Source of the DNA: Clostridia bacterium
GTDB taxonomy: Bacteria; Bacillota; Clostridia; Christensenellales; Aristaeellaceae
Assembly (NCBI GenBank): GCA_017460395.1
Contig: JAFUBA010000111.1
Location: forward strand, 1-42,150
DNA: 42,150 bases
Direction: 5' to 3'
Below, piece by piece: positions 1 to 42,150 of this stretch. A model generated the notes under the pieces. The model searched no databases. It saw only the letters and a program-made list of their open reading frames with translations, and was not told the DNA's origin. How positions within the stretch are numbered: position 1 is the stretch's first letter; each line of letters opens with the position of its first letter. The translations under genes and the position numbers were made by a program.

Positions 1-56
1 GGATCACGTTCTACAAAAAAGAGGTCTAAAGGTGCTACATAAAAGATCGCATCATG
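1..56 (+). other. Window edge, probable 3' end of an unseen gene
   Basis: In the third frame the first codons read ITFYKKEV and then stop at 30-32 (TAA). This could be the tail of a gene lying left of the window, because a strong terminator-like hairpin follows directly. Eight codons are too few to name a family. If it is a gene end, the gene upstream was not OppC running directly into oppD, which bears on the broken state of oppD. Confidence 0.3.
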
Positions 57-958: not shown

Positions 959-1959
959 GCGAACCGATCCTGCGCGTCAGGAACCTGAAAAAGTACTACA
1001 AGAGCGGCTCTATGTTTGGCAAGAAGGAAACGGTCCGCGCCGTGGATGGTGTCAGCTTTGAACTGAACCATGGCGAGACGCTGGCCATCGTCGGCGAGAG
1101 CGGATGCGGGAAATCCACGGCCGTGAAGGCGCTGATCCGCATCGTGGAGCCGACCGACGGGGAAATTCTTCTGGAGGGAGAGGACTTTCGTACACTCTCG
1201 GGCGCGAAGCTGCAGGCTGCACGCCGGAATATCAAGATGATTTTCCAGGATCCCTACTCCTCGCTCAATCCCAGAATGACCGTCAGAGACATTATTGCTG
1301 AACCCATCGATATCGACCATGCATGGAAGACCAGGCAGGAGCGGGAGGAGATTGTGCTCAATACCATGCAGGAGGTGGGGCTGGATCCTTCCTATGCCGA
1401 CCGCTACCCGCATGAGTTTTCCGGCGGGCAGCGACAGCGAATCGGAATTGCACGGGCGATCATCCAGCGACCGAAGGTGGTGATCTGCGATGAGCCGGTC
1501 TCTGCACTGGACGTCAGCATTCAGGCGAAGATTATCAACCTTCTGCGGGAAATTCAGCGCAAACAGGATATTTCCTACATCTTTATATCCCACGACCTGG
1601 GTGTGGTGGAGCACATTGCGAATCGCATTCTGGTGATGTACCTCGGGCACGTCGTGGAGGAGGGACGAACGGAGGATATTTTTGCACATCCCGCGCATCC
1701 GTATACGCGTCTTCTGCTCAACAGTATTCCGAAGATCGGAAAGCCGACCGATGACGAGAGCGTATTACTGGAGGGGGACCTGCCAAGCCCCGCAAATCCT
1801 CCGCATGGCTGCGTCTTCCATACGCGCTGCCCGTATGCCGAGGCGCGGTGCAGCCAGGACGCACCGGGCATGAAGACCATTGACGGCATTCACAGGTGCG
1901 CGTGCTTCCTGGATACATCTGCTGACATATCCCATGCAGATTTGGCGATGAATTCGTGA
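955..1959 (+). CDS. Oligopeptide ABC transporter ATPase OppF
   Basis: This is the second ATPase of the peptide importer, 334 residues, full length for OppF/DppF. Walker A GESGCGKS is at residues 47-54, the Q-loop is MIFQDPYSSLNP, the signature is FSGGQRQRIGIARA, Walker B is VVICDEPVSALD, and the H-loop is FISHD. The C-terminal extension carries FHTRCPYAEARC, the Cys-rich element of the oligopeptide/dipeptide family. The gene starts inside the oppD stop (ATGA). No permease (oppB, oppC) or binding protein gene is in the window, and its partner OppD is broken here, so the transporter may not work as encoded, unless the damage is an assembly artefact. Confidence 0.93.
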   Translation: MSEPILRVRNLKKYYKSGSMFGKKETVRAVDGVSFELNHGETLAIVGESGCGKSTAVKALIRIVEPTDGEILLEGEDFRTLSGAKLQAARRNIKMIFQDPYSSLNPRMTVRDIIAEPIDIDHAWKTRQEREEIVLNTMQEVGLDPSYADRYPHEFSGGQRQRIGIARAIIQRPKVVICDEPVSALDVSIQAKIINLLREIQRKQDISYIFISHDLGVVEHIANRILVMYLGHVVEEGRTEDIFAHPAHPYTRLLLNSIPKIGKPTDDESVLLEGDLPSPANPPHGCVFHTRCPYAEARCSQDAPGMKTIDGIHRCACFLDTSADISHADLAMNS

Positions 1960-1994
1960 CCGTCAGCGAAAAACAAGAGGAAAGAGGCATTACC

Positions 1995-3080
1995 ATGGAA
2001 TTTGACAGAGCGGCCGTTGAAAAGGATTTTCGCGAACGCATCAAAACGCTCTCCAGCACTTTCGGACCCTCCGGATTTGAGGAGGAGGTCGTGGAGGAGG
2101 TGCGAAAGGAACTGTCTGCCACAGACTTTGAGCTTTCGGATGACCTCATGCTGAACCTGATTGCCCACAAGAAGGGCAGGAAACCGGGCAAGCTCCTGGT
2201 GGCTGCGCATACAGATGAAATCGGCCTCATCGTGCGTCACATCGACAGGAAAGGCTTTCTGTGGTTTGAAACGCTGGGCGGCATCGCGCCGCAGCAGTTC
2301 TTCGGAAAACACGTGATCGTGAGAACCGAAGAGGGAAAACACATCGACGGCATCGTCAACTATGTGAAGCCCGGGCGTCCGCAGCGCGCACCGGAACTGC
2401 CAAAGGACGTGCACGGCTTCTTCATTGAGGTCGGCGCGGAATCCTACGAGGAAGTGCGCGAGATGGGGATCGAGGAGGGTGCCCCGGTCAGCATCGATTA
2501 TCCCGTCATCAACCTGGGCAGGCACCGTCTGGGCGGCAAGGCGCTGGACGACAGGGCACTGGTCTTCATTCTGGAGGAAGTGGTGAAGCTGTTTGACGGC
2601 CGTGACGACATTCCGGACTTCTATGCCGCATTCACCAGTCAGGAGGAGGTCGGCGCGAGAGGCGCGATCGTCGCAGCTCAGAAGATTCAGCCGGATGTTG
2701 TCGTCGCGCTGGACATGAGCCTTGCCACCGACATTCCGCATGTGCCGGAATCTGAATATGTCAACGAGCTGGGCAAGGGCACTTCCATCAAAATCATGGA
2801 CAAGCTGGGTGCCGGCGTGCAGGGCCTGATCGCCAACCGGCAGGTCGTGAAGGACATGAAGTCTGCCGCGAAAAAACATGACATTCCGTACCAGATCGAG
2901 GCATATGCGGCCGGCGCGACCGACGCAAGTTTTGTTCAGACGCTGAATCATGGCACCCGCGCTGGTGGCATTCAGATTCCCATGCGCTATGTACACAGCT
3001 ATGAAGTGGTGGACGTGCGCGATGTGGTGGATACGGTGGAGCTGCTCTACCGCTACATTGAGCAGCTGACGATAGAATAA
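1995..3080 (+). CDS. M42 family metallopeptidase (aminopeptidase)
   Basis: This is a co-catalytic metal aminopeptidase of the M42 family (PepA/YsdC/FrvX type) that trims peptides in the cytoplasm. The metal and catalytic residues are all visible: AAHTDEIGL (His and Asp), LGGKALDDR (Asp), TSQEEVGARGA (Glu-Glu), ALDMS (Asp) and the C-terminal RYVHSYEVVD (His). I chose ATG 1995 because AGAGGAAAGAGG lies 7 nt upstream. A GTG at 1956 overlapping the oppF stop would add 13 residues of poor character. Its place right after oppDF fits digestion of imported peptides, and it probably shares their transcript. Confidence 0.92.
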   Translation: MEFDRAAVEKDFRERIKTLSSTFGPSGFEEEVVEEVRKELSATDFELSDDLMLNLIAHKKGRKPGKLLVAAHTDEIGLIVRHIDRKGFLWFETLGGIAPQQFFGKHVIVRTEEGKHIDGIVNYVKPGRPQRAPELPKDVHGFFIEVGAESYEEVREMGIEEGAPVSIDYPVINLGRHRLGGKALDDRALVFILEEVVKLFDGRDDIPDFYAAFTSQEEVGARGAIVAAQKIQPDVVVALDMSLATDIPHVPESEYVNELGKGTSIKIMDKLGAGVQGLIANRQVVKDMKSAAKKHDIPYQIEAYAAGATDASFVQTLNHGTRAGGIQIPMRYVHSYEVVDVRDVVDTVELLYRYIEQLTIE

Positions 3081-3276
3081 CGCACCAGCTGGTTCAGGGA
3101 GCTTCGGCACCTTATGCTCCGTGTTTCCGCCCCACCCCGTGATTCGAACAGAGGAAGGGGCATTCGCTTGTGTGAAGCGCACAGTCGGAGTAGAATGGCC
3201 GCAGGATCATTCCGCCAGACGGGCAGATGAACGTGGCCGCATATCACATTGCTTTATACTTGTGGCACCTGATATA
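3081..3276. other. Intergenic stretch with no gene seen
   Basis: Between the M42 peptidase and the terminator at 3277 I see no convincing reading frame. A weak stem (GGAGC...GCTCC, about 3099-3122) and a TTGCTT...TATAGC pair near 3249-3278 are present, but neither is strong enough to call. Confidence 0.4.
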
Positions 3277-3307
3277 GCCGGGCAGGATTGACCTGCCTGG
3301 CTTTTTT
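3277..3307 (+). terminator. Intrinsic terminator after the opp/M42 operon
   Basis: A 10-bp stem (GCCGGGCAGG with CCTGCCTGGC, one G-U pair) with a 5-nt loop is followed by six T residues. It should end transcripts from oppDF and the M42 peptidase before the methyltransferase gene. Confidence 0.8.
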
Positions 3308-3360
3308 GGAAGCGTCAGTTCATTCCGCTTGCTGCTTTTTGATGTGAAAGGGGCCTCAGT

Positions 3361-4224
3361 ATGTACTCCGGAGATGCTGTCTTCTATGATGCATTTCAAA
3401 GCTTTTGCGGCATCGGCGCAGATGTGGAGCTCATCCGCCGGCTGATCCCGGACAGCGCACGGGACGTGTGTGAGATTGCCTGCGGGACGGGAAGAATTCT
3501 TCTGTCGCTGAGAAGGCCGGGTCTCACGCTCACGGGGCTGGACCTTTCGGAGGACATGCTGAAGGTGGCAAGAAAGAAGGACCCGTCCGTCAGATGGCTG
3601 CAGGCCGACATGCAGTGCCTCCCGGATCTTGGCCCCTTTGACTTTATCATCTGTGGCTACAATTCGATTCAGCACGTGATGGAGAATGCAGGGGTCAGGA
3701 GCTTTCTTCGCGGCGCGCGGGAAAACCTTCGGGAGGGCGGCCTTCTCTATCTGGATCTGTACAATCCGCGTGAGTGGCTGAAAAGGGAGGAGGACCCATA
3801 CGCCGCGGAATATACGCCTGGCGGCAGGCTTTCAGAACCTTTGGATGATGATGCCACGATGCGCTTCCGGGTGCCGCCGTTTCTGTGCGGAGAGCAGGCG
3901 ATTGTGCTCTATGAGAGCCAGTGGACCGATGAGGCGAATATGATCCGGCACATCACCTACGAGTACTATGAGATGGACAGGGACGTGTATGACCGCGGCG
4001 ATCTCAGATACCTGTACACGCAGAAGCAGCACCCTGAGGTGGAACGTTTCCTGCTTGCGGAGAACTATGAGATGCGTGAATTCCTCCCAGGGGAAATGGA
4101 AGAGATGATCCTGGATTGCGGCTTTCAGATAGAAAAGCGTTTTGGAGAGTATGACGGCAGCGATTATGCCAGGAATTCCACCAAGCAGATCTATCTTCTA
4201 AGACGTGCGCAACAAAAGGCCTGA
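3361..4224 (+). CDS. Class I SAM-dependent methyltransferase
   Basis: This is a 287-residue protein with the Rossmann-like methyltransferase fold. Motif I is VCEIACGTGRI (about residues 36-46), followed by the acidic motif II LTGLDLSEDML, ADMQCL (motif III) and FDFIICGYNSIQHV (motif IV region). The second half has an insert of aromatic and acidic residues seen in Methyltransf_25-type enzymes of unknown substrate. The start ATG is preceded by GTGAAAGGGGCC at good spacing. It stands alone between a terminator and the pta promoter, so context gives no substrate. Confidence 0.85.
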   Translation: MYSGDAVFYDAFQSFCGIGADVELIRRLIPDSARDVCEIACGTGRILLSLRRPGLTLTGLDLSEDMLKVARKKDPSVRWLQADMQCLPDLGPFDFIICGYNSIQHVMENAGVRSFLRGARENLREGGLLYLDLYNPREWLKREEDPYAAEYTPGGRLSEPLDDDATMRFRVPPFLCGEQAIVLYESQWTDEANMIRHITYEYYEMDRDVYDRGDLRYLYTQKQHPEVERFLLAENYEMREFLPGEMEEMILDCGFQIEKRFGEYDGSDYARNSTKQIYLLRRAQQKA

Positions 4225-4240
4225 AGGAATGAAAAACGGT

Positions 4241-4269
4241 TTGACTCAAAGGGCAAAGTTCGGTAGAAT
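4241..4269 (+). promoter_or_regulatory. Sigma-A promoter for pta-ackA
   Basis: TTGACT (4241-4246), a 17-bp spacer and TAGAAT (4264-4269) make a near-consensus promoter directly after the methyltransferase stop codon. It predicts a 5' leader of about 175 nt before pta. Confidence 0.8.
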
Positions 4270-4275
4270 ACCGGG

Positions 4276-4452
4276 GGTCAGGGAATCCGGCGATGCCGAA
4301 GGCCCATGCCGGATTTCATCGTTTGGCTCAGTGCGTGTCCAGGTCCGGTCTTTTCCGGATGAGGACAGACACGAACAGGTACAATCACCGGGCACTGCAT
4401 AAAGGCATTCCGAAAGGGTATGACAACAAGGGTAACGAAGGAGGAATTTCCC
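4276..4452 (+). other. Leader of pta with two hairpins
   Basis: The leader holds an 8-bp perfect stem (AATCCGGC...GCCGGATT, 4288-4319) with a 16-nt loop. A second small stem (TCCGG...CCGGA) lies near 4351-4363. Neither is followed by a U run, so no attenuator is evident. I could not match it to a named riboswitch. Confidence 0.4.
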
Positions 4453-5454
4453 ATGTCTGTGATTGAGAAGATCAAGGCAAAGGCAAAGGAAAATGTAAAG
4501 CACATCGTGCTGGCCGAGGGCGATGAACCCCGCACGGTCCAGGCGGCTGCAAAGATTGTGGCCGAGGGACTTGCCAAAATCACCCTGGTGGGCAAGGAAG
4601 AGAGCATCCGCAAGGTGGCTGCTGAGACCAACACGGATCTGACGGGTGTGGCCGTTGTGGATCCTGAGACCTGCGAAAAGTCTCCCGCATATGCTGAGAA
4701 GCTCTGCGAGCTCCGTCAGAAGAAGGGCATGACGCTTGAACAGGCCACAGATCTGGTCTATCACAACACCCTGTATTTCGCCACCATGATGCTGAAGATG
4801 GACGATGCGGACGGCCTGGTGGCCGGCGCCATCAACTCCACCGGCAATGTGCTGCGCCCCGCCCTGCAGATCATCAAGACGGCCCCCGGCATCTCCACCG
4901 TGTCCAGCTGCTTCATCATGGAGCTGCCCACGAAGGAATACGGCAATGACGGCGTCATGCTCTTCGGCGACTGCGCTGTGAACATTGAGCCGAACGCGGA
5001 TGAGCTGGCTGCCATCGCGATTGCCACTGCCAGGACCAGCCGCGAGCTTCTCTCCACCGAGCCCAAGGTTGCCATGCTGTCCTTCTCCACCAAGGGAAGC
5101 GCCAAGCATGAGGTGGTCACCCGCGTTCAGGAAGCCACTGCAAAGGCACATGAGCTGGCGCCCGACATTCTCCTTGACGGCGAACTGCAGGCCGATGCCG
5201 CTCTCGTGGAAACCGTGGCCAATCTGAAGGCACCGGGCTCTCCCGTGGCCGGCAAGCAGCCCAACGTCCTGATCTTCCCGAACCTTGGCGCCGGCAACAT
5301 CGGCTACAAGCTCGTGCAGCGTCTGGCCGGTGCAAAGGCCATCGGACCCATCATCCAGGGCCTTGCAAAGCCTGTCAACGATCTGTCCCGCGGCTGCAAC
5401 GTGGAGGAGATCGTAAACACCGTCGCAGCCGTGGCCGTGAAGGCACAGGGCTGA
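4453..5454 (+). CDS. Phosphate acetyltransferase (phosphotransacetylase)
   Basis: This enzyme interconverts acetyl-CoA plus phosphate and acetyl phosphate plus CoA, the first step of acetate formation. The protein is 333 residues, the size of the short, single-domain bacterial Pta. Recognisable segments are HIVLAEGDEPRTVQAA near the start, AGAINSTGNVLRPALQIIKT, and LSFSTKGSAKH, which line the CoA and phosphate site. ATG 4453 is chosen because GAAGGAGGAA lies just upstream; the ATG at 4420 has no such site and would add 11 unrelated residues. It is followed by ackA, so both fermentation enzymes are co-transcribed. Confidence 0.96.
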   Translation: MSVIEKIKAKAKENVKHIVLAEGDEPRTVQAAAKIVAEGLAKITLVGKEESIRKVAAETNTDLTGVAVVDPETCEKSPAYAEKLCELRQKKGMTLEQATDLVYHNTLYFATMMLKMDDADGLVAGAINSTGNVLRPALQIIKTAPGISTVSSCFIMELPTKEYGNDGVMLFGDCAVNIEPNADELAAIAIATARTSRELLSTEPKVAMLSFSTKGSAKHEVVTRVQEATAKAHELAPDILLDGELQADAALVETVANLKAPGSPVAGKQPNVLIFPNLGAGNIGYKLVQRLAGAKAIGPIIQGLAKPVNDLSRGCNVEEIVNTVAAVAVKAQG

Positions 5455-5503
5455 GAAGCCGGTTTTGATCTGAACTGCAGGAATCAAAAGATAAAGGGGG
5501 ATA

Positions 5504-5529
5504 GCCGGAACCGCGGGCGCGGTTCCGGC
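5504..5529 (+). promoter_or_regulatory. Hairpin between the ackA Shine-Dalgarno and its AUG
   Basis: A perfect 11-bp GC-rich stem (5504-5514 with 5519-5529, tetraloop GGGC) lies between AAGGGGG (5494-5500) and the ackA ATG (5538). The linear distance of 37 nt is far too long for initiation, but with the stem folded the distance drops to about 11 nt. This suggests that the hairpin is part of the ribosome binding site. A looser 7-bp repeat (TTTTGAT...ATCAAAA, 5463-5489) lies just before it. Confidence 0.6.
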
Positions 5530-5537
5530 GCATCAAA

Positions 5538-6755
5538 ATGAAAATTCTGGTTGTCAATGCCGGCTCTTCCTCACTCAAGTATCAGCTCATCGACATGGAT
5601 GGCGAAGTGCTCCTGGCCAAGGGCCTGGTGGAGCGCATCGGCATTGAGGGCGGCCACCTCAAGCAGACGGTGACCCTGCCCGGTGCAAGCAAGAAAGTGG
5701 TGGAGATCACCCATCCCGTGGCCGATCACGTGGAAGCCACCCAGATGATGCTCAATGCGCTGCAGGATCCCGAGAACGGGGCCATCAAGAGCGTGGTGGA
5801 AATCGGCGCTGTGGGCCATCGCGTGCTGCATGGCGGCACCAAGTTCTCCGCCTCCGTGGTCATCAACGATGCTGTCAAGGATGCCATCCGCGAGTGCATC
5901 CCGCTCGGACCGCTCCACAATCCTGCCAACCTCATGGGCATCGAGGCCTGCGAGAAGGTCATGCCCACCACCCCGCAGGTGGCCGTGTTCGACACTGCAT
6001 TCCATCAGACCATGCCGCCCAAGGCTTATATGTATGGTGTGCCGAAGAAGTATGCCACCGAGATGGGCGTGAGAAAGTACGGCTTCCATGGCACCAGCCA
6101 CAGGTATGTGTCCAAGCGCGTGTGCGAGTTCCTGGGCATCAGCCCCCTCGGACAGCGGATCATCATCTGCCATCTGGGCAACGGCTCCAGTCTGAGCGCC
6201 GTGGTGGACGGAAAGTGCGTGGATACCTCCATGGGCCTGACGCCCCTGGACGGCCTGCTGATGGGTACCCGCTGTGGCACACTGGATCCGGCCGTGGTGC
6301 AGTTCATCGCAAACAATGAGAACATGACCGTCGATGAAGTGCTCACCATGATGAACAAGAAGTCCGGTCTCCTCGGCATCTCCGGCAAGTCCAGCGATAT
6401 GCGCGACATTGATGCCCTGGCAGATCAGTATGACGGCGATGCCATGCTGGCCCGCGACATGCTGGTGTACGGCATCAAGAAGTACATCGGAAGCTATGCT
6501 GCCGCCATGGGTGGTGTGGACCTGATTGTCTTCACGGCCGGTATCGGCGAAAACAATGGCGCCCTGCGCGAGCGCGTGATGAGCGACATGGAGTTCCTTG
6601 GCGCCAAGCTGGATCATTCCAAGAATGCAGCCTGCGCTGACGGCAAGGCCACCGAGTGCGTCGTGTCCACGGACGATTCCAGGGTCAAGATTCTGGTGAT
6701 CCCGACCAACGAAGAGATCATGATCGCAAGGGATACACTGGATCTGGTCAGCTGA
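5538..6755 (+). CDS. Acetate kinase
   Basis: AckA converts acetyl phosphate and ADP to acetate and ATP, giving the ATP yield of acetate fermentation. It has 405 residues, the standard length. Family signatures are present in order: ILVVNAGSSSLKYQ at the N-terminus (phosphate site), GHRVLHGG, VFDTAFHQTMP, YGFHGTSHRYVS (second AckA signature, catalytic His), ICHLGNGSS and FTAGIGENN near the C-terminus. The start is fixed by the conserved N-terminus even though no Shine-Dalgarno lies at normal distance. pta is 83 bp upstream in the same operon. Confidence 0.97.
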   Translation: MKILVVNAGSSSLKYQLIDMDGEVLLAKGLVERIGIEGGHLKQTVTLPGASKKVVEITHPVADHVEATQMMLNALQDPENGAIKSVVEIGAVGHRVLHGGTKFSASVVINDAVKDAIRECIPLGPLHNPANLMGIEACEKVMPTTPQVAVFDTAFHQTMPPKAYMYGVPKKYATEMGVRKYGFHGTSHRYVSKRVCEFLGISPLGQRIIICHLGNGSSLSAVVDGKCVDTSMGLTPLDGLLMGTRCGTLDPAVVQFIANNENMTVDEVLTMMNKKSGLLGISGKSSDMRDIDALADQYDGDAMLARDMLVYGIKKYIGSYAAAMGGVDLIVFTAGIGENNGALRERVMSDMEFLGAKLDHSKNAACADGKATECVVSTDDSRVKILVIPTNEEIMIARDTLDLVS

Positions 6756-6770
6756 GAAGGCCCAGGGGAT

Positions 6771-6791
6771 GATTTTGGGCGGTCCAAAATC
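6771..6791 (+). terminator. Possible weak terminator after ackA
   Basis: A perfect 8-bp stem (GATTTTGG, loop GCGGT, CCAAAATC) lies 15 bp after the ackA stop. No U run follows, so it may only stabilise the 3' end of the mRNA. Confidence 0.35.
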
Positions 6792-6812
6792 TGCAGCCTG
6801 TGGAATATTCAG

Positions 6813-6841
6813 TTGACAAAATATGGTGGGGTCCGTATAAT
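6813..6841 (+). promoter_or_regulatory. Consensus sigma-A promoter for yceD-rpmF
   Basis: TTGACA (6813-6818), a 17-bp spacer and TATAAT (6836-6841) match the sigma-A consensus exactly. It lies 32 bp before the yceD start, so a strong, probably constitutive promoter with a short leader is expected. Confidence 0.92.
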
Positions 6842-6872
6842 ACCCCACGGTCACGGGGAAGGGTGACGAAAG

Positions 6873-7379
6873 ATGGATGTATTGGAATGCACGCGCAATC
6901 CAGGGACATCTTTTCACTTCGAGCTGGAGCAGGCCATTGCTCCTCAGGACATTCTCGGAGAGACGGTTCGGTTTGACATTGCAAGGCTGGAGGGCTCCAT
7001 GGAGGCCGATGATCTGGGCAATGTGACGCTGGAAGGGACTCTTCGTGTCCGGGCTCATGCCCTGTGCGCCAACTGTCTTCGCGAAACGTGGACGGATGAG
7101 GAAGCCTCTTTCCAGGAAACATTTCTCAGGGACGGCGATCCGGAGGATGACGAGATCTTTGCCTATTCAGGGCATGTCATCGACCTGGAAAAAATGGTGA
7201 TGTCCTATGCTGTCTTGAATTTGCCGATGAGATTTGTGTGCGGACCGGCATGCCCGGGCATCGCAGAATTTCAGACGGCTGATTTCTCGGAGACGTCATG
7301 CCAGAAGGAAACGCCTGGTCAGCGTCCTTTTGCGGCATTACAAGAACTGCTCGGACAACAGGGAGAAGAGAAACCGTGA
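6873..7379 (+). CDS. DUF177 (YceD) family protein
   Basis: This 168-residue protein belongs to the DUF177/YceD family, which almost always precedes the gene for ribosomal protein L32 and has been linked to rRNA processing or 23S rRNA levels. It shows the family's paired cysteine sites: ALCANCLRE near the middle and VCGPACPGI in the C-terminal third. The middle is acidic, with GDPEDDEIFAYSG typical of the family. The Shine-Dalgarno is AAGGGTGACGAAAG just before the ATG. rpmF follows 92 bp later. The biochemical role of the family is not settled. Confidence 0.88.
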   Translation: MDVLECTRNPGTSFHFELEQAIAPQDILGETVRFDIARLEGSMEADDLGNVTLEGTLRVRAHALCANCLRETWTDEEASFQETFLRDGDPEDDEIFAYSGHVIDLEKMVMSYAVLNLPMRFVCGPACPGIAEFQTADFSETSCQKETPGQRPFAALQELLGQQGEEKP

Positions 7380-7471
7380 GACGTTTTTCAGGCATATGAC
7401 CCGGGCAGGTCACGGCTGATCAGGAATGAGATCTGGGTTCCCAATCGAACCGTGGATGAGGAGGTGTGAGT

Positions 7472-7666
7472 ATGGCTCTTCCGAAGGGAAAAATTTCCAA
7501 AGCACGCAAGCACAGCCGTCGTGCAAACTGGAAGCTGGAGGCCCCCACGCTGGTGGAATGCCCCAGGTGCCACAGCAAGATGCTGGCCCATCATGTCTGC
7601 AAGACCTGTGGATATTATAAGGGCAAGCAGGTTGTCTACATTGATGAAGAAAAAGAAGGCGCATAA
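7472..7666 (+). CDS. 50S ribosomal protein L32
   Basis: L32 is a small zinc-ribbon protein of the large subunit. The 64-residue product starts MALPKGKISKARKH, rich in basic residues, then has CPRCH and CKTCGYY, the two CxxC knuckles that hold zinc. ATG 7472 is chosen over the in-frame GTG at 7466 because the GAGGAGG site is 7 nt upstream and family members begin at this point. It shares the yceD promoter. All four zinc cysteines are present, so this is the zinc-binding form of L32. Confidence 0.97.
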   Translation: MALPKGKISKARKHSRRANWKLEAPTLVECPRCHSKMLAHHVCKTCGYYKGKQVVYIDEEKEGA

Positions 7667-7677
7667 GCTCATCTGAG

Positions 7678-7859
7678 AAAAGAGGAGTACGCCCAGGAGC
7701 CACCCAGAGAGAACCGTTCCCCGGCTGAAAGACGGTTTGCGGCAGACAGGGCGGAAGGTCGCTTTTCGAGAGCGGACAGTGAATTCATGAACTGTCCCGG
7801 TGCACTCGATATCGTGCAAATGAGGCGGGATCTTCCCGTAAATCAAGGTGGTACCACGG
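7678..7859 (+). ncRNA. T-box leader, valine-specific (valS)
   Basis: The leader shows stem I landmarks in order: GAGTAC (AGUA/S-turn), AGAGAG in the distal bulge, a stem AACCGT...ACGGTT with GCTGAAAG between its arms, and a specifier loop GAAGGTCGC in which GTC at 7758-7760 is a valine codon. The conserved T-box sequence AAGGTGGTACCACGG is at 7845-7859, where uncharged tRNA pairs with the bulge to stabilise the antiterminator. This regulates valS by the charging state of tRNA-Val, as known for T-box genes. The exact 5' end was not determined, and no promoter was assigned between rpmF and the leader. Confidence 0.93.
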
Positions 7860-7916
7860 AACCAGTCCGTCCTTTGAAGACTGAGGTCTTAAAAGGACAG
7901 ACTGGTTCTTTTTCTT
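7860..7916 (+). terminator. T-box regulated terminator
   Basis: The sequence AACCAGTC pairs with GACTGGTT, with an inner stem of TCCTTT-GAAGAC and GTCTT-AAAAGGA, followed by CTTTTTCTT. It is the conditional terminator of the valine T-box; it is disrupted when uncharged tRNA-Val stabilises the antiterminator. Confidence 0.9.
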
Positions 7917-7928
7917 GGGGAGGACAGC

Positions 7929-8150
7929 ATGGACAGTACATGGAGCAGTATGGTCCTTTCAAGGCTCCTGACACCCTGGACACTCATGGTGTTTGTGGGT
8001 GCGCTTCTGGCCTACACATCGGACAGATGGGCTGAGCTGCTGCTCACCCGGATGAAAAAGGGGAAGAAGGAAACGGTCAGCAACTGCCTCAAGGCGATCG
8101 CCATCGCGCTGGCCGTGATCGGATGTGTCTGCCTGATGATGTTCACCTGA
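7929..8150 (+). CDS. Small membrane protein between the T-box and valS
   Basis: I do not recognise this 73-residue protein. It has two hydrophobic segments, LMVFVGALLAY (about residues 19-29, with flanking hydrophobics) and AIAIALAVIGCVCLMMF at the very C-terminus. A basic stretch, RMKKGKKE, lies between them and would face the cytoplasm. It has a good ribosome site (GGGGAGGAC) and starts 12 bp after the T-box terminator, so it is transcribed only when that terminator is read through. valS begins about 60 bp later. Placement implies control by valine tRNA charging; its function is unknown. Confidence 0.72.
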   Translation: MDSTWSSMVLSRLLTPWTLMVFVGALLAYTSDRWAELLLTRMKKGKKETVSNCLKAIAIALAVIGCVCLMMFT

Positions 8151-8209
8151 AGGGGCAAAGGTGCCTGTTTGACAGAGGAAAGAGATAAGACGAAAGGGAG
8201 ATGATCATC

Positions 8210-10945
8210 GTGGACGAGGAAAAGAGCACAAAGACACTGGAGATGGACACGAAATATAATCCTCAGGCCATTGAAACGGAGCTGTATGAAGCGTGGGAGA
8301 AATCCGGCGCGTTTGTAGCGCACCGCGTGGAAGGGAAAAAGCCCTTTACCATCGTGATGCCTCCGCCCAATATCACGGGACAGCTGCACATGGGCCATGC
8401 CATGGACTGCACGCTGCAGGATGCGGCCATCCGCTATCACAGGATGCGCGGTGAGCCCACGCTGTGGCTGCCCGGCACCGACCATGCCGCCATCGCCACC
8501 GAGGTCAAGATCGTGGATGCGATGCGCAAGGAAGGCCTGACCAAGGAAGGCATCGGGCGCGAAAAATTCCTGGAGCGTGCATGGGCCTGGAAGGAAACCT
8601 ACGGCAACCGTATCACGCAGCAGCAGCGCCGCATGGGCTCCTCCTGCGACTGGAGCCGCGAGCGCTTCACGATGGACGAGGGCTGCTCAAGGGCCGTGCG
8701 CGAAGTGTTCTGTAACCTCTATGACAAGGGCCTCATCTACCGCGGCAGCCGCCTGGTGAACTGGTGCCCCTGCTGTAACACCTCTCTTTCTGATGCTGAG
8801 GTGGAATATGAGGAGAAGGACGGCAACTTCTGGCACATTCTCTATCCCGTGAAGGAGACAGGGGAACTGCTGGAGCTGGCCACCACGCGTCCCGAGACCA
8901 TGCTGGGCGATACGGCCGTCGCCATCAATGCGGAGGACCCGCGCTATCAGCACCTGCATGGATGTCATGTGATGCTGCCGCTCGTGGACCGCGAGATCCC
9001 GATCGTCTGCGACGAGCACGCCGACATGACCAAGGGAACGGGCGTGGTGAAGATCACCCCCGCCCATGACCCCAATGACTATGAGGTGGGCCAGCGCCAC
9101 GACCTTGAGATCATTCGTGTCTTTACCTTCGACGGCCACATGACCGGCGCGAAGGAAAAGGCGGAGAACGATGAGCTGTTTGCCAGCGGCAAGGCAGCCG
9201 TGGGCGAGGCGAAGGTGCTGGACTGCGGCAAGTATGCCGGCATGACGACCATGGAGGCCAGAAAGGCCATCGTGGAAGACCTGAAGGCACTGGGCCTGAT
9301 GGGCAAGATCGAACCGCTCAAGCACGAGGTGGGCACCTGCTATCGCTGCCACAGCGTGGTGGAGCCGATGGTTTCCAGGCAGTGGTTTGTGAAGATGGAG
9401 CCCCTGGCAAAGCCCGCCATCGAGGCGGTCAGAAGCGGAAAGACGGAGTTTGTGCCGGAGCGCTTTGCCAAGACCTACATGAACTGGATGGAGAACATCC
9501 GCGACTGGTGCATCTCCCGTCATCTCTGGTGGGGCCACAGGATCCCCGCCTGGTACTGCGACGACTGCGGCGAGACCATCGTGTCAAGGGAAGATCCCAC
9601 CGTGTGCCCCAAGTGCGGCGGCCATCACCTGGTGCAGGACGAGGAAGTGCTGGATACCTGGTTCTCCAGCGCGCTCTGGCCCTTCTCGACCCTCGGATGG
9701 CCGGATGAGACGGAAGACCTGAAGTACTTCTATCCCACCACGATGCTGGTGACCGGCTACGACATCATCTTCTTCTGGGTGGCCAGGATGATCTTCTCTG
9801 GCATTGAGCAGATGGGCGAGACACCCTTCAAGACGGTGCTGATCCATGGTCTTGTGCGCGATGAGCTGGGCAGAAAGATGTCCAAGTCCCTGGGCAACGG
9901 CGTGGATCCCCTGGAGGTCATTGACCAGTACGGCGCGGATGCGCTGCGCTTCTCCCTCCTCATGGGCGTGAGCCCGGGCAACGATACCCGCTATTCCACC
10001 GAGAAGGTGGAGGCTGCCCGGAACTTTGCCAACAAGGTCTGGAACGCCAGCCACTTCGTGCTCATGAACGTCACGGAGCGCCACGAGATCAGGAATGAAC
10101 TTCTGACACCTGCGGACAAGTGGATTCTCACCAGGTTCCAGGATGCCATCAGGGACATGACCAGCCACAACGAGGAAGGCGATTTTGGCCTGAGCGCCAG
10201 CAGAATCTATGATTTTGCATGGAGTGAATTCTGCGACTGGTACATCGAACTGGCCAAGCCCTGGCTGTTTGGCGAGGACGGAGAACAGAAGCAGAACGTG
10301 CAGGCGGTCCTCCTTTATGTGCTGGAAGGCCTCCTGAAGCTGCTGCATCCCTTCATGCCGTTCCTGACCGAGCAGGTCTATCACTATCTGCCCGGAAGCG
10401 AAGGCTTCCTGATGCTGAAAAACTGGCCCGAGACCGTGGAAGCTTACGACTTCCAGCGTGAAGAAGGCGAGATGGAGGGCATCATGGAGGTCATCCGCGC
10501 CGTGCGTAACCTCCGCGCCGAGATGAACGTGCCGGCCGGCAAGCGCACCAGGATGATGTTCAGGGCCAACGAGGGCTGGGCGGATACCCTGTCCCATGCT
10601 TCCATCTATTTCCAGCGCCTGGCAGGTGCCACCGAGACCAGCCTGATTGCGGACGCCTCAGCCATCGGAGAAAAGGTGGTCAGCGCTGTGTCCAGGGCCG
10701 GCGAGATCTATATTCCGCTTGGGGACCTGGTGGACTTTGAAAAGGAGATCAAGCGCCTGAACAAGGAGCGGGAGAACCTGGAGAAGGAGATCGAGCGGGC
10801 AGGTGCCAAGCTGAATAATCCCGGCTTCCTCAACAAGGCACCGGAGCAGCTGGTCCGGCAGGAAAAGGAGAAGCTGGAGAGCAACGTGAAAAAGCTCGAG
10901 TCCATCAGGACAAGGATTGCGGAGCTGGAGAGCGATCTGAAGTAA
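8210..10945 (+). CDS. Valine--tRNA ligase
   Basis: ValS charges tRNA-Val and edits misactivated threonine. The protein has about 911 residues. It shows PPPNITGQLHMGHAMD with the HIGH-type motif (about residue 60), the editing domain motif TTRPETMLGDTAVAI, and KMSKS at about residue 556. A tRNA-binding anticodon domain follows, and the last 70 residues are a charged coiled coil (FEKEIKRLNKERENLEKEIE). Start choice: ATG 8201 touches the AAAGGGAG Shine-Dalgarno, so GTG 8210 with 9-nt spacing is more likely. The family N-terminus proper begins near 8243 (MDTKYNPQAIE). It is controlled by the T-box leader upstream. Confidence 0.97.
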   Translation: MDEEKSTKTLEMDTKYNPQAIETELYEAWEKSGAFVAHRVEGKKPFTIVMPPPNITGQLHMGHAMDCTLQDAAIRYHRMRGEPTLWLPGTDHAAIATEVKIVDAMRKEGLTKEGIGREKFLERAWAWKETYGNRITQQQRRMGSSCDWSRERFTMDEGCSRAVREVFCNLYDKGLIYRGSRLVNWCPCCNTSLSDAEVEYEEKDGNFWHILYPVKETGELLELATTRPETMLGDTAVAINAEDPRYQHLHGCHVMLPLVDREIPIVCDEHADMTKGTGVVKITPAHDPNDYEVGQRHDLEIIRVFTFDGHMTGAKEKAENDELFASGKAAVGEAKVLDCGKYAGMTTMEARKAIVEDLKALGLMGKIEPLKHEVGTCYRCHSVVEPMVSRQWFVKMEPLAKPAIEAVRSGKTEFVPERFAKTYMNWMENIRDWCISRHLWWGHRIPAWYCDDCGETIVSREDPTVCPKCGGHHLVQDEEVLDTWFSSALWPFSTLGWPDETEDLKYFYPTTMLVTGYDIIFFWVARMIFSGIEQMGETPFKTVLIHGLVRDELGRKMSKSLGNGVDPLEVIDQYGADALRFSLLMGVSPGNDTRYSTEKVEAARNFANKVWNASHFVLMNVTERHEIRNELLTPADKWILTRFQDAIRDMTSHNEEGDFGLSASRIYDFAWSEFCDWYIELAKPWLFGEDGEQKQNVQAVLLYVLEGLLKLLHPFMPFLTEQVYHYLPGSEGFLMLKNWPETVEAYDFQREEGEMEGIMEVIRAVRNLRAEMNVPAGKRTRMMFRANEGWADTLSHASIYFQRLAGATETSLIADASAIGEKVVSAVSRAGEIYIPLGDLVDFEKEIKRLNKERENLEKEIERAGAKLNNPGFLNKAPEQLVRQEKEKLESNVKKLESIRTRIAELESDLK

Positions 10946-11971: not shown

Positions 11972-12866
11972 ATGCATGAATCAGCCAAAGAGGATTCCTT
12001 CCTTGTTTGTTGTGGCCACGCCGATCGGGAACCTGCAGGATTTTTCCCCGAGGGCGATCGAGACGCTGCGAAATGTCGGTTTTATTGCCGCCGAGGATAC
12101 CCGCAACACCATGAAGCTGTGCCAGGTCTTTGACATTCACACGCCCCTCATTGCCTGCCATATGCACAATGAGGACGTGAAGGGCAGGGAGATGGCGGAG
12201 AAGATGGAGCGGGAAGGGGTGGACGCCGCCCTGGTGACGGATGCGGGGACGCCCTGCATCTCGGATCCCGGCAATCTGTTCGTGCACGCCTGCCTTGAAA
12301 AAGGGTTCCCGGTGCTGCCGATTCCCGGCTGCTGTGCCGGTGTGTCTGCGCTGTCCGTCTCCGGCTTCGATGCCAGGGAATGGACCTTCTACGGCTTTCT
12401 TCCAAGGGAGAAAAAGGAACTGAAGGAAAAGCTGCTGAAGATGGCACAGGGAACCCGGATCGCGGTGGTGCACGAGTCACCCTTTCGGGTCAAGCATCTC
12501 ATGGAGGTCCTGAGTGAAGTCCTGCCGGGGACGCAGGTCTCTGCGTCCTGTGATCTGACAAAGCTTCATGAGCTGACGATTCGGGGCGGGGCAGGGGAGG
12601 TCCTTCAGGCACTTATATCCAATCCCAAGTCCGAAAAGGGTGAGTACTGTCTCGTGTTCGATTTTGGAAGCCCTGAGGAAGAGAAGGCAGATGAACAGCC
12701 GTCCGGGCGCGCCGGTACCATCGAGGAGCGGCTCTGCGCGTGCATTCTGGAGGGACTTTCCATGCACGAGGCACAGGAGCGGCTGATCGAGGCGGGCGAA
12801 AAGAAGAATGCGGTCAAAAGCGCTGCGATCCAGGTCAAGCGTCGGATGCAGGAGGTCTTTGCCTGA
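11964..12866 (+). CDS. 16S rRNA (cytidine1402-2'-O)-methyltransferase RsmI
   Basis: RsmI adds the 2'-O-methyl to C1402 of 16S rRNA, the partner of the RsmH mark. It has 300 residues. Motifs of the tetrapyrrole-methylase-like fold are clear: VVATPIGNLQDFSPRA, AAEDTRNT, VTDAGTPCISDPG, PIPGCCAGVSALSVSG and FYGFLPREKKE. The start overlaps the rsmH stop by 8 bp, so the two rRNA methylases are translationally coupled. The C-terminal 60 residues form the helical HTH-like extension common in the family. Confidence 0.95.
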   Translation: MSECMNQPKRIPSLFVVATPIGNLQDFSPRAIETLRNVGFIAAEDTRNTMKLCQVFDIHTPLIACHMHNEDVKGREMAEKMEREGVDAALVTDAGTPCISDPGNLFVHACLEKGFPVLPIPGCCAGVSALSVSGFDAREWTFYGFLPREKKELKEKLLKMAQGTRIAVVHESPFRVKHLMEVLSEVLPGTQVSASCDLTKLHELTIRGGAGEVLQALISNPKSEKGEYCLVFDFGSPEEEKADEQPSGRAGTIEERLCACILEGLSMHEAQERLIEAGEKKNAVKSAAIQVKRRMQEVFA

Positions 12867-12896
12867 TGTCCCAGGGCCTCGGGCATGCATGAAAAT

Positions 12897-14007: not shown

Positions 14008-14094
14008 TTCATCGCAGCTCGCATGACCCGGATGTGATGCCTGAATGCAGATGCTGCATGGGAACACGATATGAGAGAGGTGTCAGCTGGACAT

Positions 14095-39410: not shown

Positions 39411-40988
39411 ATGCCGGTGGACACCAGAAAAGAACAGGAACGGGACGAACTGCACCGAGCAATTTGGGCTATAGCTGATGATCTTCGCGGTGCTGTAGAT
39501 GGCTGGGATTTTAAGAACTATGTGCTCGTCACGATGTTCTATCGCTACATTTCTGAAAACCTGACTGCGTACATCAATGAGGGTGAGCATGAAGCTGGCA
39601 ACACAGATTTTGACTATGCTCAGATGTCAGATGCGGACGCCGAGGAAGCAAGGCAGGGGCTGGTAGAGGAAAAGGGCTTCTTCATCCTGCCCAGTGAGCT
39701 CTTCTGCAATGTACGGGCAAGTGCAGCACAGAATGAAAACCTGAATGAGAACCTGGAACGAGTCTTCCGACATATCGAAGATTCAGCAAAGGGCAGTCAG
39801 TCAGAAGGCGACTTTGCGGGCCTGTTTGATGATTTCGACGTGAACAGCAACAAGCTCGGAAGCACTGTGGCCAAGCGCAACGAGCGTCTGACCAAGTTGC
39901 TCGATGGCATTGCATCCATGAATCTCGGTTCCGTGAAAGACCACGAGATAGATGCCTTCGGTGACGCATATGAGTATCTCATGACAATGTATGCCTCCAA
40001 TGCTGGCAAGTCCGGTGGAGAGTTCTTCACGCCGGCAGATATTTCTGTGTTGCTGACGCGCCTCGGTACTGTGGGCAAGACTAAGATCAATAAGGTGTAT
40101 GATCCGGCGTGTGGCAGCGGATCTCTATTATTAAAAGTGGAGTCAGTTTTGGGCAAGGACGCGGTGGTAAATGGCTTTTTCGGTCAGGAAATAAACATCA
40201 CCACCTACAACCTTTGCCGCATCAACATGTTCCTCCACGATATTGGGTTTGAAAAATTCGATATTGCGTGTGAAGATACGCTTACAAATCCACAGCACTG
40301 GGATGACGAACCTTTTGAACTGATCGTTTCAAATCCACCGTATTCTATCAAATGGGCCGGCGATGATAACCCGATCCTGATCAATGATCCCAGGTTTTCT
40401 CCGGCGGGCGTGCTAGCGCCAAAGAGTAAGGCAGATATGGCCTTTATTATGCACTCGCTGTCATGGCTTGCTCCGAATGGCACAGCTGCGATTGTCTGCT
40501 TTCCGGGCATCATGTATCGTGGCGGAGCAGAGCAGAAGATCCGGAAATATTTGGTGGACAATAACTTTGTTGACTGTGTCATACAGCTCCCGAGCAACTT
40601 GTTTTTCGGGACCTCTATTGCTACGTGTATCATGGTCCTGAAGCGTGGCAAAGCTGACAACAAGATTCTATTCATTGATGCCACCAACCAATGTGTGAAG
40701 GTGACGAACAACAACAAGCTCCTGCCGGAACATATTGATACCATCGTGAATGCATTTGCTGACCGCAAGGATATCGACTATCTCTGCCGACTGGTAGATT
40801 ATGATGGGGTTAAGGAACAGAACTACAACCTTTCTGTTTCCACTTATGTGGAGCAGGAGGATACCAGGGAGAAAATCGATATTGTAAAGCTTAATGCTGA
40901 GATAAAGGAAATCGTCGCTCGTGAGCAGGTTCTCCGTGATGAAATTGATAAGATAATTGCAGAGATCGAAGGAGGGCAAGACGCATGA
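39411..40988 (+). CDS. Type I restriction-modification system methylase subunit HsdM
   Basis: HsdM is the adenine-N6 methylase subunit that, with HsdS, marks the host's sites. The 525-residue protein has the N-terminal helical HsdM domain (ELHRAIWAIADDLRG, YVLVTMFYRYISENL). Then come GGEFFTPADISVLLTRL, SAM motif I YDPACGSGSLLL, GQEINITTYNLCRINMFLHDI and the catalytic NPPY at residues 308-311. Length and motifs place it with M.EcoR124I (type IC). ATG 39411 has GGAGGG 8 nt upstream. It overlaps hsdS by 4 bp (ATGA). No hsdR is in the window; it would be expected to the right. Confidence 0.95.
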   Translation: MPVDTRKEQERDELHRAIWAIADDLRGAVDGWDFKNYVLVTMFYRYISENLTAYINEGEHEAGNTDFDYAQMSDADAEEARQGLVEEKGFFILPSELFCNVRASAAQNENLNENLERVFRHIEDSAKGSQSEGDFAGLFDDFDVNSNKLGSTVAKRNERLTKLLDGIASMNLGSVKDHEIDAFGDAYEYLMTMYASNAGKSGGEFFTPADISVLLTRLGTVGKTKINKVYDPACGSGSLLLKVESVLGKDAVVNGFFGQEINITTYNLCRINMFLHDIGFEKFDIACEDTLTNPQHWDDEPFELIVSNPPYSIKWAGDDNPILINDPRFSPAGVLAPKSKADMAFIMHSLSWLAPNGTAAIVCFPGIMYRGGAEQKIRKYLVDNNFVDCVIQLPSNLFFGTSIATCIMVLKRGKADNKILFIDATNQCVKVTNNNKLLPEHIDTIVNAFADRKDIDYLCRLVDYDGVKEQNYNLSVSTYVEQEDTREKIDIVKLNAEIKEIVAREQVLRDEIDKIIAEIEGGQDA

Positions 40989-42150
40989 GCAAATTGGATG
41001 ATTTGATTACTGAACTGTGCCCTAATGGTGTTGAATATAGCAGATTGGTTGATGTATGTGATGATATTATTGTACCAATGAGGGATAGACCAAAGGATCT
41101 TACTGGACCTATTCCGTGGTGTCGTATTGAGGATAAGGAAGGGCAATACTTTAATGGATCTTTGTCGGAGTTAGGCGTTACAGAAGAAACGATAAAGAAA
41201 ATGAATTTAAAGGTTTTTCCTACCGGAACGGTTATTTGCTCATGTAGTGCCTCTATAGGCGCATATGCAATCAATACTCAGCCATTGATAACAAACCAAA
41301 CCTTCATAGGGTTGGTTTGTGGCACAAGGTTGTATAACAAGTATCTCCTGCATTATATGGAAACTCAAACGGCATATTTATTGTCACAGGCATCTACAGG
41401 AACTATTCCTTACATATCACGTAAGAAGTTTGAAGAAATGGCGGTTCCTGTACCTCCTATTGAGGTGCAGCGTGAAATTGTCCGGATTCTTGACACTTTC
41501 ACAGAGCTTACAGCAGAGCTTACAGCAGAGCTTACAGCAAGGAAGCAGCAGTACGAGTATTATCGGAATGAAATCCTAAGTTTTGATAATAAGGTTGAAA
41601 AGCGTTCCTTGTCTGAAATTGCCAATGTTTTTCGCGGTGAATATATTACCAAGAAAGATTCTACCCCGGGCAGTATACCTGTGATATTAGGCGGTCAGGA
41701 ACCGGCTTATTACATAAATAAGGCAAACCATGAAGGTGAGATAGTTGTTATTGCTCGAAGTGGCGCATCAGCCGGATTTGTTTCATACTGGAATGAACCA
41801 ATTTATGTTACGGATGGCTTTGGGTATGAAGCAAGAAGTGATGTTGTAATTTCCAAATACCTGTACTATGTGCTCAAACACTTAGAACCGGAATTAAATG
41901 ACATGAAGCGTGGTGCCGGAGTGCCTCACGTCAGTGGAGAAATGCTTGGAAGGGTTGAACTACCTGTACCACCGATTGAAGTGCAAAAGAGACTTGTAGA
42001 TGTTTTAGATAACTTCGACGCTATTTGTTCTGACCTGAACATTGGCCTTCCTGCCGAAATAGAAGCCCGTCAAAAACAATATGAATATTACAGAGATTTG
42101 CTATTGACATTCATTGAAAAAGGCAACACAATATTGACAGACAGACAGAC
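40985..42150 (+). CDS. Type I restriction-modification specificity subunit HsdS (3' end cut by window)
   Basis: HsdS chooses the DNA target of the type I enzyme. The frame is open from ATG 40985 to the end of the window (388 codons). Two target-recognition domains are seen, each followed by a conserved spacer helix. The first spacer begins PVPPIEVQREIVRILDTFTE and has three TAEL-type repeats before ARKQQYEYYRNEIL. The second begins PVPPIEVQKRLVDVLDNFDA and ends with ARQKQYEYYRDLLL. This layout is that of EcoR124-family (type IC) HsdS. The stop codon is not in the window, but the distal conserved region is nearly complete. The gene is clearly AT-richer than its neighbours up to queA, a sign of transfer. 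Confidence 0.93.
   Translation, partial: MSKLDDLITELCPNGVEYSRLVDVCDDIIVPMRDRPKDLTGPIPWCRIEDKEGQYFNGSLSELGVTEETIKKMNLKVFPTGTVICSCSASIGAYAINTQPLITNQTFIGLVCGTRLYNKYLLHYMETQTAYLLSQASTGTIPYISRKKFEEMAVPVPPIEVQREIVRILDTFTELTAELTAELTARKQQYEYYRNEILSFDNKVEKRSLSEIANVFRGEYITKKDSTPGSIPVILGGQEPAYYINKANHEGEIVVIARSGASAGFVSYWNEPIYVTDGFGYEARSDVVISKYLYYVLKHLEPELNDMKRGAGVPHVSGEMLGRVELPVPPIEVQKRLVDVLDNFDAICSDLNIGLPAEIEARQKQYEYYRDLLLTFIEKGNTILTDRQ
41504..41539 (+). repeat. Three perfect 12-bp TAEL-coding repeats in hsdS
   Basis: GAGCTTACAGCA occurs three times without a mismatch (41504-41515, 41516-41527, 41528-41539), coding ELTA three times in the central helix of HsdS. In EcoR124 two versus three copies of the equivalent repeat change the spacer of the recognition site by one base pair. 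The tract can gain or lose copies in frame by slippage or unequal crossing over. Confidence 0.97.
42136..42150 (+). repeat. GACA tetranucleotide tract at the window edge
   Basis: GACA is repeated 3.75 times (15 bases) up to the last base of the window, within the 3' part of the hsdS frame. Its full length is not visible. Tetranucleotide tracts inside reading frames can cause frame-shifting phase variation; alternatively the window or contig may simply break in a simple repeat. Confidence 0.75.

Follow-up and report, generated by a model that had tools for sequence, protein, structure and literature searches.

Which part of a Type I restriction-modification system could vary when its specificity gene, hsdS, carries a short in-frame repeat and then reaches the end of its contig in another repeat? 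The question is raised by contig C67, which was analysed whole (the window, 42,150 bases) and which comes from a genome of 4.30 Mb in 247 contigs. An initial reading of the letters, below called the original prediction, had pointed to a 12-bp repeat located between two target-recognition domains (TRDs) of hsdS, and we followed both repeats through the source genome, related loci, protein homologues, and structure models.

Results

The window ends within a Type IC hsdS gene

The window closes with hsdM and hsdS, which overlap by the four bases ATGA, and hsdS runs into the contig end (Table 1). The system is Type IC (EcoR124-type), given the HsdM_N and N6_Mtase domains of HsdM and the EcoR124_C domain of an HsdR encoded on a second contig, C136, whose adjacency to C67 we infer. 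The AlphaFold2 model of the window HsdS (mean pLDDT 82.4, pTM 0.61) places the 12-bp repeat inside a single helix, residues 159-198. When nine genomes of the genus were searched with HsdS, only weak partial matches, in two genomes, were found outside the genome of origin.

Table 1 Features of the window end and of contig C136
Feature	Position	Strand	Evidence or remark
hsdM, methyltransferase subunit, 542 aa	39360..40988	+	N6_Mtase 372.9 bits, HsdM_N 75.6 bits
hsdS, 388 codons up to the window end, frame still open	40985..42150	+	two Methylase_S stretches, E 6.6e-46
TRD1 and first conserved region of hsdS	41027..41533	+	Methylase_S match PF01420, 83.3 bits
12-bp spacer repeat, 3.2 perfect copies	41502..41539	+	Tandem Repeats Finder; within predicted helix 159-198
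TRD2 of hsdS	41591..42067	+	Methylase_S match, 77.7 bits
Second conserved helix, residues 331-374	41975..42106	+	AlphaFold2 model of P0001; conserved-region profile match
Start of (GACA)n tract, cut by the contig end	42136..42150	+	Tandem Repeats Finder
GACA repeats	C136 (L010) 1-21		one variant unit, TACA
hsdR, 1053 aa	C136 616-3777		EcoR124_C 239.6 bits, HSDR_N

The same genome has a second Type I locus (L011, G000:C97:12000-25000, 1509-10428, minus strand). It contains hsdM, hsdR, and four specificity open reading frames (193, 395, 199, and 386 aa), among which lies a Phage_integrase-type recombinase (341 aa). The copies have direct repeats between them, and the locus looks like a recombination-type specificity switch.

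The 12-bp repeat has the length of the EcoR124I spacer

Among the 25 Tandem Repeats Finder rows of the window the 12-bp repeat scores highest (76, with 100% matches), and the three ELTA units at 41504-41539 encode HsdS residues 174-185. These results confirm the three perfect repeats in the central helix of HsdS that the original prediction had described, in an open frame with two Methylase_S stretches. They also bear out its assignment of the protein to the Type IC HsdS subunits having an EcoR124-type 12-bp spacer repeat. The spacer of 7 bp that it had tied to three TAEL units is the less probable one. EcoR124I has two 12-bp repeats and a gap of 6 bp, whereas EcoR124II has three and a gap of 7 bp (PMC3874165, available part). 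Read in the EcoR124 register, the window HsdS has only two full TAEL units (F-TEL-TAEL-TAEL-TA-R), and its repeat zone (FTELTAELTAELTARKQQY) aligns without gaps to that of 7bst (FTALTAELTAELNMRKKQY), the best chain by sequence, with 16 residues between F and QY in both. Note that the title of this entry reads EcoR124I-Ocr whereas its molecule name reads EcoR124II. Because the spacer of the window HsdS equals that of two-repeat EcoR124I in length in a gapless alignment, a 6-like gap (N6) is expected and would be a better prediction than N7.

The window HsdM was used to scan a contig set covering 84,980 species, which gave at least 587 stretches, 459 of them encoding relatives. The best 80 loci were kept (HsdM 78-88% identical); being the nearest relatives, they are no measure of prevalence. 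Spacers, taken as the stretch between LD.F and QY, could be measured in 72 genes, those of the window and 71 of these loci (seven of the 80 gave no conserved-region match, eight gave one, and two gave no spacer). The lengths were always a multiple of four: 8, 12, 16, 20, and 24 residues in 2, 3, 34, 32, and 1 genes, respectively. Among the 72 genes plus 121 proteins, 18 pairs differed in spacer length although TRD1 and TRD2 were each 80% or more identical. Where the two TRDs were nearly identical (96-100%), the differences were of whole units, P0083 having one TAEL (12 residues), P0032 and P0038 two (16), and P0045 three (20). Likewise, L074 has two units (16 residues) and L089 three (20) with near-identical TRD1 and TRD2; the clearest of these examples reach 99-100% identity. 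As such relatives carry one, two, or three TAEL units, sequence comparison makes gain and loss of units, and with it a spacing switch, well supported in relatives from species other than that of the window. The in-frame change of copy number put forward in the original prediction thus has its counterpart in these genes, the unit number differing among relatives rather than being equal in all. At the DNA level, 45 genes from the 80 loci and the window had at least two exact TAEL units, and all copies were identical in 40 of them. Units were identical in 89.6% of 77 within-gene pairs versus 24.3% of 5488 between-gene pairs, and hence the units of each gene are homogenised to an extent greater than chance.

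The DNA around the repeat (41474-41539) also gave matches of 62-67 bp to hsdS genes on plasmids of Enterococcus, Lactococcus, and Escherichia, at 88.7-94.0% identity (best 20 of 38 rows), and the rest of that query had no match in those plasmid genes. TRD exchange may have a crossover point in the TAEL region.

The GACA tract at the window end probably leads into a third TRD

The TAEL repeat had been ranked as the best candidate for a variable system in the window, a place it loses to the tract at the window edge, into which hsdS runs and which would gate a third TRD (TRD3). The final 15 bases of the window are GACA repeats, the only perfect repeat there with a unit of 2-8 nt, at least three copies, and at least 14 nt. 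The sequence GACAGACAGACA is present at two places in the whole genome, where C67 ends and where C136 (locus L010) starts; the latter contig opens with GACATACAGACAGACAGACAGG. Past the C136 tract a 198-codon stretch of one frame spans a third Methylase_S domain (83.4 bits) and ends in a stop at 597, and the other two frames stop at 26 and 31. About 18-19 nt beyond the hsdS stop lies hsdR, which has its own AAGGAGG sequence. C67 and C136 are therefore likely to be neighbours broken at one tract, a join supported by the resulting order hsdM-hsdS-hsdR and by the 77% identity of the C136 TRD3 to that of locus L028. The TACA variant unit at the C136 end could slow slippage. Imperfect units similar to this variant were also seen around the tract of L021.

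The tract and third TRD occur together in related loci

Short tandem repeats following TRD2 were present in 36 of the 80 nearest hsdM loci, with the units GACA (31), GAGCA (3), AATGC (1), and AG (1). The tract thus lies within the hsdS frame, with a frame-dependent read-out, at both contig ends (given the putative join) and in these 36 loci. Its position is nearly fixed, beginning 56-58 nt after the start of the conserved-region codon motif in 34 loci, 62 nt in L086, and 70 nt in L021; the longest tract has 35.5 units (L058). In the same loci the sequence ahead of hsdM, 532,102 bases in total, was free of perfect repeats that have a unit of 2, 4, or 5 nt and span 14 nt or more. Seven of the 36 tract contigs end inside the tract, and those of L038 and L043 end 14 and 61 nt past it. 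Assemblies break at the tract inside hsdS in 7 of the 80 related contigs and in the window, which makes it easy for genes of this kind to be entered as truncated ones.

Loci with 700 nt or more of readable sequence beyond the last conserved region were sorted by the number of conserved regions. The tract was present in 26 of 28 loci having three such regions, none of 23 having two, and neither of two having one (Fisher p = 1.5e-12 for three versus two, a value that is too small given that the loci are related). The two exceptions were L035, which is in frame and has its tract reduced to one TDRQ, and L094, which has a half-S gene plus a two-TRD gene. Within the first 600 nt after the L094 hsdM there is a free one-TRD hsdS with LEAE repeats, which precedes the two-TRD hsdS. 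This half-S shares 120 of 181 residues with the TRD3 of the window genome and is the same TRD in the form of an independent half-S. L043 is possibly a rearranged hsdS: its GACA tract (14029-14074) lies past a conserved region, about 3.4 kb separates its two conserved regions, and no frame stays open beyond the tract.

The unit at this point is not always GACA. L086 has (AG)20 at 12836-12875 in its place, the protein P0119 has ER repeats, and P0044 and P0106 have TDGR/TDG-type repeats, and therefore this one place has seen several changes of unit. Outside the Firmicutes, Fusobacterium vincentii SB055 (Fusobacteriota) has 35 copies of AAGC (SKQA) at the same point of a three-TRD, out-of-frame gene. 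This was the best match in the plasmid collection and the one that was examined; against the three-TRD protein P0002, plasmid and phage records (1178 and 10, respectively) gave matches that were all below 60% identity. The tract/TRD3 anatomy was also found in cultured strains of Faecalibacterium prausnitzii, F. hattorii, Ruminococcus turbiniformis, Yanshouia hominis, Criibacterium bergeronii, Peptostreptococcus anaerobius, and Lachnoanaerobaculum.

Within the family of the source organism, a plain search for (GACA)5 matched 5 of 308 genomes, and none of the five tracts read, one per matched genome, was followed by a TRD3 frame. Note that one of these tracts (L100) ends its contig and another (L099) had just 10 nt upstream, and that the genome of the latter (G113), which was read in part, has more matches than the L099 tract explains. 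Given these counts, the system in the family is sporadic or masked where assemblies break, if not both. Another genus of the family has (GACA)12.75 at L098 1501-1551 after a 368-codon open frame, which, to judge by a motif, looks like an adenine methyltransferase.

TRD3 is conserved as protein even when out of frame

Frames were compared in the 27 loci readable for at least 500 nt past the tract (L043 was left out). All 27 had one long open frame of 189-217 codons after the tract, opening into a third TRD. Relative to the second conserved region this frame was in frame in 7 loci, +1 in 11, and +2 in 9, a split that fits tract lengths random modulo 3 (p = 0.64). The 54 other frames were closed almost at once, 53 stopping within seven codons and one after 20, versus 47% stopping within seven codons at 7698 control positions in TRD2. 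TRD3 was open in all 20 out-of-frame loci, and in 16 pairs of such loci its differences fell at codon positions 1, 2, and 3 in the ratio 718:461:1713. As third positions carry most of the differences, the TRD3 protein sequence is conserved even though the assembled genes have it out of frame. An HsdR relative, 65-83% identical to the HsdR of C136, follows TRD3 in 26 of 27 loci, the contig of L023 ending first. The distance from the hsdS stop to hsdR is 12-42 nt in 20 of the 26 and 322-922 nt in the other six.

Both states of one gene are present among known proteins

When the window HsdS was used as query, 119 of the best 120 homologues (of 7998 candidates) had at least 560 aa. Of these 120, 103 contained SRAEQ (AGCAG x3), 12 TDRQ (GACA x3), and five neither, and the linker [KR]L.Q[YF]VF was found in 115. 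Because ranking by score favours three-TRD proteins, these 120 say nothing on frequency. Fourteen groups of proteins were identical save for the repeat number, one group spanning 1 to 7 units. In the 83 listed proteins with three measured spacers, the first spacer was 16 (47 proteins) or 20 residues (36), and the second and third were 20 in all.

For a second search the first 427 residues of a gene of one such group served as query, and the best 120 of 7997 matches were considered. Among these, the P0019 group comprised 13 proteins of 614-644 aa that share an identical 417-aa core and are read through the tract. P0130 (442 aa, 26 member sequences) has one core mismatch versus this group and ends in the tract. 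Hence, the read-through and terminated states of one gene are both present in public data. TRDs are also exchanged, P0122 having the P0019-group core with a different TRD3, and one TRD type is found at position 2 in the window HsdS and at position 3 in P0002.

P0002 has three Methylase_S stretches in one frame. Its model (mean pLDDT 75.4, pTM 0.44) shows a linker helix at 414-428 followed by TRD3 and its helices; at this pTM the predicted structure leaves the pairing of TRD3 unfixed. We rejected the notion that the tract forms one long helix between TRD2 and TRD3, since in the same model pLDDT is below 50 at 396-412 and a loop begins at 403.

Discussion

These data suggest a switch in which tract length decides how many TRDs are made. 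With TRD3 out of frame, translation would stop a few codons past the tract and give an ordinary HsdS, in which TRD1 is paired with TRD2. With TRD3 in frame, TRD3 and its own helical region would be joined through the TDRQ-coded linker and could pair with TRD1 or TRD2, such that HsdM would methylate one or more further motifs. The TAEL number would set the gap for those pairings that use the first helix. For the window we hold it likely that the Type IC hsdS with its 12-bp repeats runs into the tract and on into C136, that slippage would toggle a two-TRD and a three-TRD HsdS, and that gain or loss of 12-bp units would shift the gap of the TRD1-TRD2 target. Slippage in the strain itself, the join of the two contigs at one tract, and an added or changed specificity of the three-TRD form are the steps we infer. 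With somewhat less confidence, though still on the favourable side, we propose that these genes form a recurrent Type I class, seen chiefly in gut Firmicutes and once in Fusobacteriota. In this class a repeat at a fixed point after TRD2 would gate a third TRD, the next stretch stops both other frames, and TAEL number independently sets spacing, so that one gene could give a two-dimensional set of motifs.

It could be argued that only the TAEL repeat matters, as in the spacing switch of EcoR124I and EcoR124II, and that the GACA tract and TRD3 are a decaying leftover. The mechanism is known (PMC3874165, available part), and the homogenised units and the changes of unit number between near-identical TRDs fit it. 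A decaying leftover, however, would hardly have TRD3 open in 20 of 20 out-of-frame loci with differences mostly at third codon positions, nor would the tract recur at one place with different units or full three-TRD proteins be common among the 120 listed homologues, and we consider this reading unlikely. About equally improbable is an on/off switch, in which the protein with three TRDs lacks activity or poisons the enzyme and an in-frame tract turns off methylation and restriction. An added domain could indeed hinder assembly, and the three-TRD state is the rarer one (7 of 27), but chance by itself would give one in three. Yet TRD3 is conserved as protein and exchanged between genes, and the three-TRD protein JHP1422 is active (PMC3936762, available part).

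Two further readings are ranked low. Tract length might instead set hsdR output, in-frame reading coupling hsdR translation to hsdS and out-of-frame reading ending about 570-650 nt earlier and lowering it. The short hsdS-hsdR distances in C136 and in 20 of 26 loci would allow coupling, whereas the long ones in the other six would not favour it, nor does the AAGGAGG sequence of the C136 hsdR; moreover, coupling leaves the conserved TRD in between unexplained, and we hold the idea to be very unlikely. Least probable of all, with barely any weight, is re-initiation, in which the out-of-frame TRD3 is translated alone as a half-S homodimer that reads a palindromic target. One-TRD S proteins can act as homodimers (PMC3874165, available part), the TRD3 of JHP1422 alone is a one-TRD precedent (PMC3936762, available part), and L094 has the free half-S like the TRD3 of the window genome ahead of its two-TRD hsdS. 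However, the TRD3 frame has its first start codon, a TTG, at L010:70, where TRD3 begins, with no ribosome site seen, and the linker valine codon is GTG in some relatives but GTA or GTT in others.

The gating of a third TRD by slippage can be set against known systems, for which the parts of the cited papers available to us are the basis. EcoR124I and EcoR124II share the repeat unit, its location within the first conserved helix, and the in-frame unit change (PMC3874165); the window spacer has the length of that of EcoR124I and the C136 HsdR has EcoR124_C. They have two TRDs, however, and the available text describes no frameshifting tract, whereas the window hsdS runs on into a GACA tract and, probably, a third TRD. 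NgoAV of Neisseria gonorrhoeae combines a 4-residue spacer repeat (LEAT) and a frameshifting poly-G in one hsdS, both altering the motif (PMC6789123). The NgoAV frameshift cuts HsdS short near residue 201, between the TRDs, and so selects half-S or full S (PMC6789123). The window hsdS is not of this type, its tract following TRD2 and its conserved region, so that the protein is already complete with two TRDs and would gain a third. JHP1422/JHP1423 of Helicobacter pylori J99 has three consecutive TRDs and gives two methylation motifs with one HsdM. JHP1422 methylates AAGN5CTT and AAGN6TAAAG, TRD1+TRD3 and TRD2+TRD3 each being active (PMC3936762). There, in contrast, TRD2 and TRD3 are identical and alleles change by recombination, and the portion at hand describes no slippage tract gating TRD3 (PMC3936762).

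Simple-sequence-repeat hsdS genes of REBASE (phasevarions) have a tract in the hsdS frame with slippage expected, but no third-TRD gate is described in the available part of that paper (PMC7394358). According to an earlier survey cited there, 7.9% of hsdS genes carry simple repeats, and that survey may include some of the genes discussed here. Recombination at flanking repeats, rather than slippage frameshift, also lets TRDs of hsdS change position and increase from two to three (PMC3077401, available part). The same source gives a Mycoplasma agalactiae gene with three TRDs, for which recombination was proposed as the origin. Each element, the spacer repeat, the frameshifting tract, and the three-TRD HsdS, thus has a precedent. 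We found none for a tract gating a third TRD in the accessible portions of the open-licence literature, and within these the combination appears new.

The methylation slippage switches in the literature consulted, as far as its text was available, have a tract that turns the enzyme on or off or chooses a half-size HsdS. If the proposed switch is correct, slippage here adds a DNA-reading domain while the basic enzyme stays whole, and within a clone a cell could have one methylation motif or several and still keep the system.
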